Assembly (NCBI RefSeq): GCF_001695855.1
Contig: NZ_MBSS01000034.1
Span: forward strand, 124,001-188,000
Length of the DNA: 64,000 bases
From: Ensifer sp. LC163
GTDB lineage: Bacteria; Pseudomonadota; Alphaproteobacteria; Rhizobiales; Rhizobiaceae
Direction of reading: 5' to 3'
Positions 53,451-57,658 of this stretch are shown here, piece after piece. Positions within the stretch are counted from its first letter, which is position 1, and every line of letters begins with the position of its first letter. Below the pieces are notes generated by a model. The model made no database searches. It was not told the origin of the DNA and worked only from the letters and a program-made list of their open reading frames with translations. Position numbers and translations under genes: made by a program.

Positions 53451-53987
53451 ATTCGCAGACCGTTCAAAACGGACGCCCCCGTCAAGGAGGGACCGCGCTC
53501 AAACAAGGAAATCCGGGTTCCCCGGGTTCAGCTTATCGATGCCGAAGGCCAGAATATCGGTGCCGTCCCGATCGACCAGGCGCTCCGCATGGCGGAAGAG
53601 GCCGGTCTTGATCTGGTAGAGATCGCGCCGAACTCCGAACCGCCGGTGTGCAAGATCCTCGATCTCGGCAAGCTGAAGTACGCCAACCAGAAGAAGGCGG
53701 CCGAAGCGCGCAAGAAGCAGAAGATCGTCGAGATCAAAGAGATCAAGATGCGTCCCAACATCGACACGCATGATTATGAAGTGAAGATGCGGGCGATGAA
53801 TCGCTTCTTCGAGGAAGGCGACAAGGTCAAGGTGACCCTGAAGTTCCGCGGTCGCGAAATGGCGCACCAGGAACTCGGCATGAAGCTCCTGCTTCAGGTC
53901 AAGGACGACACCCAGACGATCGCCAAGGTCGAAGCCGAGCCGAAGCTCGAAGGCCGCCAGATGATGATGGTCCTCGCTCCGCGTTGA
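53451..53987 (+). CDS. infC: translation initiation factor IF-3, ATT start
   Basis: A 178-residue factor: N-terminal domain ([20 protein letters not shown]), lysine-rich linker and C-terminal domain ([32 protein letters not shown]). The frame continues upstream but conserved sequence starts at RRPFKTDAP, preceded by ATT 53451 and GAGGAG nine bases upstream. AUU initiation is the classic autoregulatory start of infC, because IF-3 discriminates against it. The two genes usually next to it, rpmI and rplT, are 3.8 kb away here. Confidence 0.93.
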
Positions 53988-54099
53988 CCGCCGCTGACGG
54001 ACGGGTCGTCCGTGCGACGTATCAGGTAGGAAGCCGCCCTCGGGGCGGCTTCTTGCGTTTGAGGGCGCCCCGACTTCCTCCGCAGCGCCTTTGCGCCTC

Positions 54100-54140
54100 T
54101 GCTGACAGAATGCTGACAGCCGGCCTCAGCGAGCTGTCAG
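54100..54140 (+). promoter_or_regulatory. OmpR-family-type direct repeat upstream of the Asp-rich gene
   Basis: TGCTGACAG at 54100-54108 and again at 54111-54119 gives hexamers CTGACA spaced by 5 bp (11-bp period), the geometry of OmpR/PhoP-family boxes; an inverted CTGTCAG follows at 54134-54140. It lies 50-90 bp before the start of the Asp-rich gene, whose cluster encodes an OmpR-family regulator. Confidence 0.55.
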
Positions 54141-54190
54141 TGGCGGCATGTCATTCTCCCGTGATCGAAATCAGGAGAAGGACGAAAGTC

Positions 54191-54775
54191 ATGTACGTCA
54201 CGCTTCGAAAAGCTTTGCTTGTTTCCACCATGGGTGTTTGTGGGCTCGTGTCCGCACCCGTTGGGTTCTCGCTGATCGCGACCGGTCCGGCGCATCCGTT
54301 CGCCACCGCCGCGCTTGCCGACGATGGCGACAGCAGCGGTCACGGCGGCAGCGATGATGGCGGCCATGACGACCGCGACAACGACGACCGGGATGATGAT
54401 GACGATCGCGGCGATAACCGCGGCCCCGGCAACGATCACGATGACGACGACGATGATGATGACAACCGCGGTCCCGGCAACCGAGACGACGATGACGATG
54501 ACGATGACGATGATGATCGCGTTGACAACCGCGGTCCAGGCAACCGGGACGACGTTGACCGGCCTGAGGTTGCGCTGAGTGTTTCTGAGGAGAGCCTGAG
54601 GGGTCTGCTCAACGGATCGCTGATCGCCGTTGACGATCTTGGCCGGGTTCTGGAGGTCGAGATCGAAATCGAGGATGGGGTTCGCGTCGTGACCGTGAAG
54701 CCGGGTGGTGGCGATGCCCGCCGCAATCCGGGTCCAATTACCAGCGTTTCGATCAGGCCCGCATCGGCGCTTTGA
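54191..54775 (+). CDS. exported Asp-rich repeat protein
   Basis: A 194-residue protein: signal peptide (about 1-40, MYVTLRKALLVSTMGV ... AALA), a repetitive region (about 45-130) of Asp runs alternating with NRGPGN, and a C-terminal domain of about 55 residues (EVALSVSEESLRGLLNGSLI, LEVEIEIEDGVRVVTVKPGG). The repeats have no EF-hand or RTX consensus but would bind divalent cations. Start ATG 54191 with AAGGACG upstream. It heads a cluster with a second acidic exported protein and a two-component system. The family is not recognised. Confidence 0.8.
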   Translation: MYVTLRKALLVSTMGVCGLVSAPVGFSLIATGPAHPFATAALADDGDSSGHGGSDDGGHDDRDNDDRDDDDDRGDNRGPGNDHDDDDDDDDNRGPGNRDDDDDDDDDDDRVDNRGPGNRDDVDRPEVALSVSEESLRGLLNGSLIAVDDLGRVLEVEIEIEDGVRVVTVKPGGGDARRNPGPITSVSIRPASAL

Positions 54776-54787
54776 TCCAAACTGATG

Positions 54788-54818
54788 TCCGGTGCATCCG
54801 CCCCCGTAGTGCACCGGA
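54788..54818 (+). other. hairpin after the Asp-rich gene
   Basis: TCCGGTGCA/TGCACCGGA, a perfect 9-bp stem 12 bases after the stop; no T-run follows. Confidence 0.5.
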
Positions 54819-54870
54819 ATGATGGGCTCATTCCGCTTAACGCCCGCCCAGCGGATTGGCCCAAGGAACG

Positions 54871-54914
54871 CATGACCCCCTGCGCCGGAACCGACGCAGG
54901 GGGTCATGTGCTTT
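54871..54914 (+). terminator. terminator of the Asp-rich gene
   Basis: CATGACCCCCTGCG/CGCAGGGGGTCATG, a perfect 14-bp stem with loop CCGGAACCGA, followed by TGCTTTT. The rest of the 327-bp gap (54776-55102) holds three copies of ATGTCGGG (54918, 55006, 55045) and a TTGACA at 54949-54954, probably the promoter of the next gene. Confidence 0.85.
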
Positions 54915-55102
54915 TCCATGTCGGGCCCGGCGCGCGCGACCTCTTGCGCTTGACAGCGCGGGGGATCAATCTGCTGGGAGGCGGGCGAGAGGAATTTGCA
55001 AGCGCATGTCGGGTATGCGCCTTGGGGAAGCATGGCGCCGGACAATGTCGGGAATGACGCGGCGCCTTCGCAAGGCTTGAAAATGTGGAACTGGACGAAA
55101 CC

Positions 55103-55621
55103 ATGCCGATGACACGACGAAATCTGCTCGCACTGTTTTGCTGTTCTATGCTGCTTTCGCTTGCGCCGCAGGTGGGCGGCTTTTCCGCCTTTGCCAAGGA
55201 CGGCGACGACGACAGCAGCAGCAGCAGCAGCAGCAGCAGCGGTAGCGGTAGCAGCGGGTCGAGTGGCCATGGCGGCGGCGATTCCGGTGACGACGACAAC
55301 AGCGGTCGCGGCGGGGACGATGATGACGGCGACGACAATAGCGGCCCCGGCGGTGGCGATGATGACGGCAACTCCGGCAGCGGCCGCCGCAGCGATCAGG
55401 AGCGGGCCCGCGACGGCGTGGAGAAGGGACGCATCCTGGCGCTGAAGGATGTGCTTCGCCTCGTCGACGAGGACAAATATGGTGCGGTCATTGCCGTGGA
55501 CCTGAGGCGATATGACGATGCCGAAGTCTACAGGCTGCGCACGCGTGACCAGCAGGGCACGATCCGAAATCTGCGCATCAACGCGCGCACTGGGAAATTC
55601 ATGAACATCTTCGGATTCTGA
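55103..55621 (+). CDS. exported Ser/Gly/Asp-rich protein with PepSY-like domain
   Basis: A 172-residue protein: signal peptide with twin Arg (MTRRNLLALFCCSMLLSLAP), a Ser run then Gly/Asp-rich linker (about 35-100), and a C-terminal PepSY-like domain (about 108-172: GRILALKDVLRLVDED, VIAVDLRRYDDAEVYRLR, TIRNLRINARTGKFMNI). PepSY modules inhibit peptidases or bind metals and often sit beside PhoPQ-type systems. The response regulator starts 7 bp after the stop. ATG 55103 or 55109 may be the start. Confidence 0.82.
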   Translation: MPMTRRNLLALFCCSMLLSLAPQVGGFSAFAKDGDDDSSSSSSSSSGSGSSGSSGHGGGDSGDDDNSGRGGDDDDGDDNSGPGGGDDDGNSGSGRRSDQERARDGVEKGRILALKDVLRLVDEDKYGAVIAVDLRRYDDAEVYRLRTRDQQGTIRNLRINARTGKFMNIFGF

Positions 55622-55628
55622 GGGCAGA

Positions 55629-56294
55629 ATGCGCATTCTTCTCGCCGAGGACGATCGTAACATTGCCACCCATGTGGTGACGAAGCTCGAGGCCGAAGGC
55701 TACGGCGTCGACACGCTGGCCCACGGCCCGGACGTCTGGGAGCAGGGCGAAAACGGTGCTTACGCCGCGATCATCCTCGATTTGGGCCTGCCCGGCATGG
55801 ACGGCCTGTCGATCCTCAAGCGTTGGCGCCAGGCGGGGCTGGAAACGCCGGTGCTGGTGCTGACGGCGCGCGGCTCCTGGATGGAGCGCGTCGACGGTTT
55901 CGACGCCGGCGCCGACGACTATCTGCCAAAACCGTTTCGTGCCGAGGAACTGGTCGCAAGATTGCGTGCGCTGCTCCGGCGCGCAGGCCCGCGGCTGCAG
56001 TCTGTGCGCTCGGCGGGGCGCTTCACCATCGACGAAACGACGCGGCGCGTCACGTTCGATGGTCAGGTTCTTGAATTGAGCCCGCTCGAATATCGCATGA
56101 TCGCGCTGTTCGTGGAGCGCAAGGGCCAGGTTCTGACGCAGCTCGAGCTGGCAAGCCATGTGCAGGGTCGTGAGGATGACGCCGCCAAGAATGCCGTCGA
56201 GGCGATGATTGCGCGACTGCGCAAGAAGACCGAGAGTTCGGCGATCGAGACGCGGCGCGGCTTCGGTTACCTGCTTCCGGACGATAGCAGATGA
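55629..56294 (+). CDS. OmpR/PhoP-family response regulator
   Basis: A 221-residue regulator: receiver domain with acidic pocket LLAEDDRNI, phospho-acceptor Asp in AIILDLGLPGMDG (near 51), Lys in ADDYLPKPF, and a C-terminal winged helix (ELSPLEYRMIALFVERKGQV, VEAMIARLRKKTESSAIETRRGFGYLL). It resembles rhizobial FeuP/PhoP. It overlaps the sensor kinase by ATGA (56291-56294) and is preceded by the PepSY-like gene. Confidence 0.95.
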   Translation: MRILLAEDDRNIATHVVTKLEAEGYGVDTLAHGPDVWEQGENGAYAAIILDLGLPGMDGLSILKRWRQAGLETPVLVLTARGSWMERVDGFDAGADDYLPKPFRAEELVARLRALLRRAGPRLQSVRSAGRFTIDETTRRVTFDGQVLELSPLEYRMIALFVERKGQVLTQLELASHVQGREDDAAKNAVEAMIARLRKKTESSAIETRRGFGYLLPDDSR

Positions 56295-57658
56295 TCCGTT
56301 CGCTTCGGCTGCGATTGGCGATTGGCGCGCTGATCGCCGTCGGCGTGGTGTTGCTGGTGGTCTGGTTCTCGCTGTCGCGGCTTTTTACCGATTACGTCGT
56401 CAGCCGTTATCGCGCCGAAATGGTGACCGTCGTCGACACGGTCGCCGCCCAGGTGGTCGTCAGGAACGGCGAACTTGCTCTGCCGCGCGAGCCGGCGGAT
56501 CCTCGTTTTTCGCTGCCGGCCGGCGGTCGCTACTGGCAGCTCACGCCGAAAGCGGGCACGCCGATCCGATCCCGATCCCTTTGGGATACCGTCATCGATA
56601 CCACGGCTCGATCCGCGCGCCGTTACGAAGGCTTTGTGGAACTCGAAGGTCCCGACGGCGCGCCGATGCTTGTTCATGCCCAGACGCTGGCGCTCGGTGA
56701 CGGCCCCAACGCCGAGCGCTTTTCCGTTCAGGCCGGCTTCGCTCGCCAGGAGCTCGACGATGCGCTCTCTTCTTTTCACGGGCGGATGCGGCTGATGCTG
56801 CTTGCAACCGCCGCCGTGCTCGCCGGCGCTGCCTTCCTGCAGGGCGCTCTCGGCCTTGCGCCGCTTAGAAGGCTGCGCGAGCGGGCGGCGCTGGTGCGCG
56901 CCGGCAGCGAACGGGACTTCGGTTCGGCCGGCCCGAGCGAGGTCGGGCCTGTCATCAACGAGATCAACCTGCTTCTGGCCGAGCGCGAAACCGCCGTGGA
57001 GCGCGCCCGAGCCCGCGCCAGCGATCTCGCCCATGGCCTGAAGACGCCGTTGACCGTGCTCGCCCAGCTTGCCGAAAGCCTGCCCGATGCCGAGCGCCGG
57101 ATGGCGCTGCAGCAGGTCGATCTTGTGCGCCAGCGTGCCGACCGCCAGCTCCAGGCCGCCCGAATGGGTGTCGAGCGCATGGCGACGACATCGGTTGCCA
57201 GCATGGCGGGCAAGCTCGTCAACGTGTTGCGGCCGGTCACCGCCGAGCGCGGCATCGTCTGGGAGAAGACGATCGATCCGTCCTTGTCTCTCGATATGGA
57301 TCCGGCCGATCTGGCCGAATGCCTCGGCAATCTGCTCGACAACGCCGCCAAATGGGCGCGTTCGCGCATCCGCGTTTCCGCAGCGCGCAACGAGGATCGA
57401 TTGCGCATCGTTGTCGGCGACGACGGTCCGGGCATTGCCGACGGAGATCGCGAAAGGGTGCTGCAACGGGGCGGCCGCGTCGCGGATGGCGAAGCGGGCC
57501 AGGTGCCGGGCACCGGGCTTGGACTTGCCATCAGCGCCGATATCGCCGATGCCTATGGCGCGACGCTGACCCTCGGCCAGTCGCCGCTCGGCGGGCTGGA
57601 GGCGGTTCTTACCTTCGAAACGGCCGGCGGGCGCAAGCGCCCGCGCGATCCGGTTTGA
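56291..57658 (+). CDS. membrane sensor histidine kinase (PhoQ/FeuQ-like)
   Basis: A 455-residue kinase: TM 1 (about 8-30), periplasmic sensor (about 31-160), TM 2 (about 165-190), HAMP, H-box SDLAHGLKTPLTVLAQLAES (His near 245), N-box NLLDNAAKWAR, G-boxes DDGPGIADGDRE and GTGLGLAISADIAD. The DLAHxLKTPL H-box is typical of PhoQ-type kinases. It forms an operon with the response regulator. Confidence 0.95.
   Translation: MIRSLRLRLAIGALIAVGVVLLVVWFSLSRLFTDYVVSRYRAEMVTVVDTVAAQVVVRNGELALPREPADPRFSLPAGGRYWQLTPKAGTPIRSRSLWDTVIDTTARSARRYEGFVELEGPDGAPMLVHAQTLALGDGPNAERFSVQAGFARQELDDALSSFHGRMRLMLLATAAVLAGAAFLQGALGLAPLRRLRERAALVRAGSERDFGSAGPSEVGPVINEINLLLAERETAVERARARASDLAHGLKTPLTVLAQLAESLPDAERRMALQQVDLVRQRADRQLQAARMGVERMATTSVASMAGKLVNVLRPVTAERGIVWEKTIDPSLSLDMDPADLAECLGNLLDNAAKWARSRIRVSAARNEDRLRIVVGDDGPGIADGDRERVLQRGGRVADGEAGQVPGTGLGLAISADIADAYGATLTLGQSPLGGLEAVLTFETAGGRKRPRDPV

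Follow-up and report, generated by a model that had tools for sequence, protein, structure and literature searches.

Why are a two-component pair and two exported low-complexity proteins encoded together between infC and rpmI-rplT, and how might the four proteins work? The question is raised by the window studied here, a 64,000-nucleotide stretch from Ensifer sp. LC163, a soil-dwelling relative of nitrogen-fixing rhizobia (contig NZ_MBSS01000034.1; the Ensifer genome containing it measures 6.5 Mb), in which four genes, all on the forward strand, form a cassette between infC, ending at 53987, and rpmI-rplT. The initial annotation had reported this layout and the pairing of a PepSY protein with a two-component system; all open reading frames were confirmed on that strand, and one cassette indeed combines two exported proteins with a two-component pair. 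We consider it rather probable that this cassette is an autoregulated, PepSY-gated two-component operon working like DbfQRS of Vibrio cholerae. The sequence itself shows the gene order, the PepSY-like fold of gene 2, a conserved operator before gene 1, and the conserved linkage to infC and rpmI. Given this anatomy and the operator, the DbfQRS logic is likely to apply to the cassette; the contact between proteins, the signal, and the output are inferred.

Gene 3 (55629..56294; 221 amino acids) encodes a response regulator of the OmpR family, recognized by Pfam (Response_reg and Trans_reg_C) and NCBIfam, and overlaps gene 4 by the ATGA at 56291-56294, both as first annotated. Gene 4 (56291..57658; 455 amino acids) encodes a membrane sensor histidine kinase, recognized by NCBIfam, structure matches, and Pfam (HATPase_c and HisKA, the latter weak and below its cut-off). 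Among the 13 congeners compared, the regulator was 86-99% and the kinase 74-96% identical, and a search of 15 congeners located gene 2 in 13. Since the regulator and kinase are conserved and gene 2 recurs, the four open reading frames are real genes rather than chance. The order infC, genes 1 to 4, rpmI, rplT was seen in 12 of 13 congeners; the exception is G003, with infC about 1.5 kb farther away on the upstream side. Among named genomes, a scan confirmed at least 300 loci, and the best 80 of these were taken; 23 of the 80 have a kinase at least 45% identical (the orthologous set, three of them congeners already counted). The core consists of the PepSY protein, the regulator, and the kinase, and gene 1 often accompanies it.

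Gene 2 (55103..55621, forward strand; 172 amino acids) ends 7 nt before gene 3 and encodes a small exported protein rich in Ser, Gly, and Asp. The PepSY-like C-terminus proposed in the initial annotation was confirmed and located at residues about 95-165, with a Pfam PepSY match (E 0.012, score 16.3) below the curated cut-off of 24; relatives were used as well in recognizing the domain. A gene 2 match including the C-terminal domain was obtained at all 23 orthologous loci (tblastn without composition correction), and the last 80 residues, which hold this domain, were net positive in 22/22 long-armed relatives. The start of gene 2 looks twin-arginine-like. The consensus of twin-arginine translocation (Tat) signals is Z-R-R-x-hydrophobic-hydrophobic, and, with the first 90 residues considered, such a pattern was present in 21 of the 22 long-armed gene-2 proteins (within the first 40 in 20) and in none of six distant ones, compared with 199/5600 shuffles for the first 40 residues and 213/5600 for the first 90. 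Profile support for a Tat start was weak, with TIGR01409 matching 2 of 28 proteins (best E 0.035) and PF10518 matching one of 28.

Upstream of gene 1, we found a candidate operator for the regulator encoded in the cassette (54102..54140, forward strand), which consists of CTGACA-N5-CTGACA (54102-54118), N16, and TGTCAG (54135-54140) and was delineated by sequence conservation. In an alignment, the congeners (L072 included) have in common CTGACAGAATGCTGACA...CTGTCAG at this place. Of the 80 loci, 78 were searched for an exact CTGACA-N5-CTGACA box in the 1700 bp preceding the regulator; L140 was set aside because it lacks the regulator start, and L119 because its regulator begins near the contig end. 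The box was present at 21 of 23 orthologous loci and at 19 of 55 distant ones. No CTGACA repeat occurred at spacings of 2-4 or 6-9 in the same loci, and neither the reversed word nor a downstream control region (complete in 65 of 78 loci) gave any occurrence. Of the two orthologous loci without an exact box, L085 has the start of its contig a short way upstream, and L088 has two mismatches. At all 21 box-bearing orthologous loci, TGTCAG followed 14-17 bases after the box and completed the operator, and this full form is a trait of the orthologous group. When congeners were included, the operator was complete in 34/34 loci, the spacer N being 16 in 32 of them and 15 in two; this set excludes L061, which lacks a box, L065, which ends in CGTCAG, L085, L088, and other distant loci. 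About 11 bp separate the last half-site from a -10-like word downstream, a spacing suggestive of an activator.

A search of 16 genus genomes for the full operator with up to two mismatches returned one exact place each in 14 genomes and none in G009 and G014, along with three stray two-mismatch places; every exact place was also read on the opposite strand with two mismatches, and a backwards control gave no hit. Since each congener genome that bears the cassette has a single full operator, the operon is probably the main, and perhaps the only, strong target of its regulator. In G005 (L031/L248, G005:C3:566007-566398), a weak gene-2 match and a two-mismatch version of the full operator stand about 100 bp apart and possibly mark a second PepSY system there.

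The closest functional model is DbfQ, an exported PepSY protein of V. cholerae that binds the sensor domain of its kinase with a Kd of 30 nM and biases it toward phosphatase activity; loss of DbfQ raised an operon reporter about 40-fold (PMC12714742). DbfQRS, published in December 2025, is activated by outer-membrane stress and responds to lipopolysaccharide (LPS) defects, polymyxin B, and thymol. That report also describes modules of a PepSY protein, a response regulator, and a histidine kinase as widespread, and defines a PepSY two-component system (PepSY-TCS) by a PepSY gene no more than four genes from a response regulator or histidine kinase (PMC12714742), a distance within which gene 2 falls. 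With such modules described as widespread and DbfQRS worked out, the earlier view of the cassette as undescribed does not hold. We regard it as a variant of known PepSY-TCS modules, in which the new elements are the operator and its uniqueness, the twin-arginine-like start, and the gene-1 domain, none of which was found described in the literature searched. As in DbfQRS, a small exported PepSY protein is encoded directly 5′ of the regulator and kinase; control of the operon by its own regulator was shown with a reporter in V. cholerae and is predicted from the conserved operator in Ensifer. Unlike DbfQRS, the Ensifer cassette has an extra first gene with an unnamed domain, a long low-complexity arm on its PepSY protein, a proposed conserved operator, a site between infC and rpmI, and a twin-arginine-like start in place of the Sec signal predicted for DbfQ. 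Gene 2 was set beside DbfQ by description.

By analogy, the exported PepSY protein would contact the kinase at its periplasmic sensor domain and keep it in phosphatase mode, and an envelope signal, for which outer-membrane damage or cationic peptides are candidates as in DbfQRS, would lift this restraint. The phosphorylated regulator would bind CTGACA-N5-CTGACA-N16-TGTCAG, about 11 bp 5′ of the -10-like word, and activate the whole operon. More kinase and regulator would then act as positive feedback and more PepSY protein as negative feedback, and gene 1 would supply an accessory or output protein combining a Gly/Asp/Ser-rich arm with a folded domain.

Several observations weigh against this DbfQRS-like reading. 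The PepSY domain is net negative in six distant PepSY proteins, as opposed to the positive charge seen in all 22 long-armed relatives, and the PepSY-kinase interface may therefore differ between them. The exact box is absent from 36 of 55 distant loci, and only three of the 19 box-bearing distant loci (L108, L121, L129) have the complete operator. The bare box also adjoins tctC at 15/15 loci examined, for example at L160 (G000:C21:38727), and a bare box is therefore not peculiar to the cassette regulator; a second bare-box place, with spacer TTTAG, TTAAG, or TCAAG, occurs in 16/16 genus genomes, and the one beside the TctC gene is plausibly a TctD operator of tricarboxylate transport. Finally, in G239 (L061), the regulator and kinase still stand beside rpmI, with infC 96 kb away, and no PepSY gene, gene 1, or operator was found before them, suggesting that the regulator-kinase pair can persist without the other parts.

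Two other systems share part of this anatomy. As in the BqsRS locus of Pseudomonas aeruginosa with PA2659-PA2658, two exported proteins are encoded 5′ of the two-component genes, and the operator is a direct repeat with an 11-bp period (TTAAG-N6-TTAAG in P. aeruginosa) (PMC12714742, PMC12666569, PMC4682146). In contrast to BqsRS, the repeated word in Ensifer is CTGACA, and, whereas both P. aeruginosa upstream proteins are called PepSY, only gene 2 is recognizable as such in Ensifer. The small negative regulator FeuN of Sinorhizobium meliloti, cotranscribed with the regulator FeuP and the kinase FeuQ (PMC3616915), is a further parallel. The window genome also has a separate FeuNPQ-like operon (L002, G000:C12:390822), which encodes an 84-amino-acid first protein without a Pfam match, a regulator 42.5% identical to that of the cassette, and a kinase 30% identical. 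The motif given for FeuP, TTCA-N7-TTCA (PMC3616915), differs from CTGACA-N5-CTGACA; L002 has one copy of the former 5′ of its first gene (L002:3890), although a motif this short is not rare in 4.3 kb, and no CTGACA box. With L002 and its FeuP motif standing in the same genome as the cassette, orthology of the cassette to FeuP/FeuQ appears unlikely.

The initial annotation had proposed that the acidic proteins buffer cations in the periplasm, taking up di- or trivalent ones and so setting the signal for a cation-sensing kinase like PhoQ or BqsS, and Asp runs are indeed present in gene 1. Acidity, however, is not conserved in either low-complexity region: the Asp+Glu share ranges from 9 to 64% in 32 gene-1 relatives and from 1 to 57% in the 22 long-armed gene-2 proteins, and it is 8-12% in four Sinorhizobium-type first-gene products (L082, L083, L084, L093). 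This wide variation suggests that the flexible Gly/Ser/Asp arm is conserved in kind and not in charge. In-frame trinucleotide runs (GAC/GAT in gene 1, 54320-54560; AGC in gene 2, 55200-55400) are candidates for in-frame length variation, because arm lengths differ between species. No EF-hand or RTX family was matched in Pfam at E up to 1 in either exported protein, in agreement with the earlier description. The kinase had been called PhoQ-type, which is correct for residues 183-444, the only part covered by its best NCBIfam match, PhoQ (122 bits against a family cut-off of 497), and not for the sensor domain. The best Protein Data Bank (PDB) matches of the kinase profile were PhoQ ATP-binding domains, and since the listed stretches all start at position 170 or later, the sensor part appears to lack a structural match and the likeness to PhoPQ to be confined to the catalytic part. 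The periplasmic sensor domain of PhoQ carries an acidic cation-binding patch; no such patch was seen in gene 4, and among 17 related sensor domains neither an acidic run of four or more nor an RExxE motif occurred (0/17 each). The Fe2+ ExxE site of BqsS (PMC12666569) is likewise not conserved in the cassette kinases, ExxE being present in three of the 17 domains, each time at a different place. With charge not conserved and the sensor domains devoid of an ExxE signature and acidic runs, cation buffering is possible but without special support from the sequence, and we judge it unlikely. It is also doubtful, if somewhat easier to entertain, that the acidic Gly-rich arms soak up cationic peptides or serve in an outer-membrane-stress response, the operon being induced by membrane-active polycations, its exported products binding them, and the kinase being PepSY-gated. 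This proposal overlaps the DbfQRS-like reading and differs from it in the role of gene 1; the response of DbfQRS to LPS defects, polymyxin B, and thymol speaks for it, as do the polyanionic low-complexity parts of most, though not all, relatives, while the existence of non-acidic relatives speaks against it.

The cassette had also been suspected of being an insertion, since infC and rpmI are commonly neighbors. Matches to infC were found in 118 of 121 genomes of an even family sample, and both infC and rplT in the same number. In the 100 genomes with infC and rplT on one contig and strand, the gap was at most 700 bp in 51, confirming the close neighborhood, 700-3000 bp in 37, and 3-10 kb in seven (the window and G012 included), with order reversed or the genes far apart in five. 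An orthologous kinase was missing from most sampled family genomes, with matches of at least 44% identity in at least five of 121 (a lower bound, from up to 13 candidates scored per genome), and absence of the cassette is common in the family. The interval between infC and rpmI is variable, and several of 11 others that we opened contained unrelated genes, named by eye as an isoprenylcysteine-methyltransferase-like gene, glycosyltransferases, and a metal ABC transporter; a predominance of unrelated genes across Rhizobiales was not seen, the interval being short in half of the 100 and variable in the others. These observations could favor a recent mobile insertion, but the core occupies the same site in Ensifer, Sinorhizobium saheli, Sinorhizobium shofinae, Ensifer sp. 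BR816, Ciceribacter, Peteryoungia, Rhizobium terricola, R. rhizophilum, R. oryziradicis, an Agrobacterium vitis strain, and Oricola, and likewise in the distant metagenome-assembled genome KLAP69, whose kinase is 33% identical. In Rhizobium sp. Root1334, R. smilacinae, and Rhizobium sp. SG_E_25_P2, the core is present with no infC or rpmI match within 6 kb on either side. Distances of regulator plus kinase correlated with those of infC, rpmI, and rplT (r = 0.857 over 29 loci selected for presence of cassette and neighbors; r = 0.912 over the 27 from Rhizobiaceae), a value reached by none of 2000 permutations; the two trees are similar but not identical, AFS000733 being placed differently. In G014 (L212/L217), the infC side adjoins the rpmI side and kinase residues 384-455 (the last 72 codons) remain beside infC. 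Because this tail persists where the two sides abut, we read G014 as a deletion of the cassette, and its absence from G014 and G009 as loss. Judged by site, distances, and the G014 remnant, a recent insertion is very improbable; ancient residence with repeated loss is the simplest history, and the cassette appears old and mostly vertically inherited as far as this sample shows.

Gene 1 (54191..54775, forward strand; 194 amino acids), defined by its reading frame, homologues, and alignment, encodes an exported Asp-rich low-complexity protein with NRGPGN motifs, three in number, and Asp runs, both as first noted; its start is the ATG at 54191, and a longer frame from 53984 is a mechanical call. 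It had no match in Pfam (E up to 1) or NCBIfam. Its last 70 residues (about 125-192) form a conserved family of 50 proteins at E 0.001, with a confident predicted model of strand-helix-strand-strand-strand-helix-strand, for which a structure search returned no convincing match and in which PepSY was not recognizable upon comparison. The gene 1 domain profile matched in at least three of 297 order genomes (a lower bound, from up to 20 candidates scored per genome), namely, the window genome, G318, and G398. In G318 (L231), the box, genes 1 to 3, and the beginning of gene 4 follow infC. G398 (L232), which belongs to a different family of the order, encodes a gene-1-domain protein in the vicinity of a second exported protein rich in Ser, Gly, and Asp, and 3.2 kb of this locus contained no match to the regulator or the kinase. 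By reading of the matches, a gene 1 match reached the C-terminal domain at 13 of 23 orthologous loci. Several others had, among the matches listed, a different exported low-complexity protein at this position, and in KLAP69 no gene was seen between the box and gene 2.

Upstream of the cassette, infC (initiation factor IF3; 53451..53987, forward strand), identified by sequence and family-genome matches, probably starts with an in-frame ATT at 53451, followed by RRPFKTDAP; ATT serves as the infC start codon in other bacteria. A GC-rich hairpin with a T-rich tail (54031..54052, forward strand), kept in the congener alignment, looks terminator-like, although a consensus terminator scan did not call it. 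A gap of 327 nt separates gene 1 from gene 2 and contains an inverted repeat at 54871-54908 (18 nt, 94% complementary, 2-nt loop), possibly an attenuator of transcription into genes 2 to 4 or a repeat element. Downstream, rpmI (L35; 57831..58034) and rplT (L20; 58074..58478) follow on the same strand, both identified by sequence.

A more speculative extension, which we hold to be improbable as a whole, would make the cassette a closed loop, in which a two-component system with its own promoter as only strong target controls the amount of two exported low-complexity proteins. The PepSY protein would be exported folded by Tat and would combine a basic kinase-binding domain with a flexible, mostly anionic arm competing with the kinase for that domain, polycations or metal ions would switch the balance, and the gene 1 domain would be a new periplasmic partner. 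For the DbfQRS-like operon itself, the sharply conserved candidate operator in this lineage may offer a handle on the regulon size of PepSY-gated kinase modules. The same lineage, which includes relatives of laboratory rhizobia, also offers natural losses of the cassette (G009, G014), a stripped regulator-kinase pair (G239), and an uncharacterized domain tied to the module.

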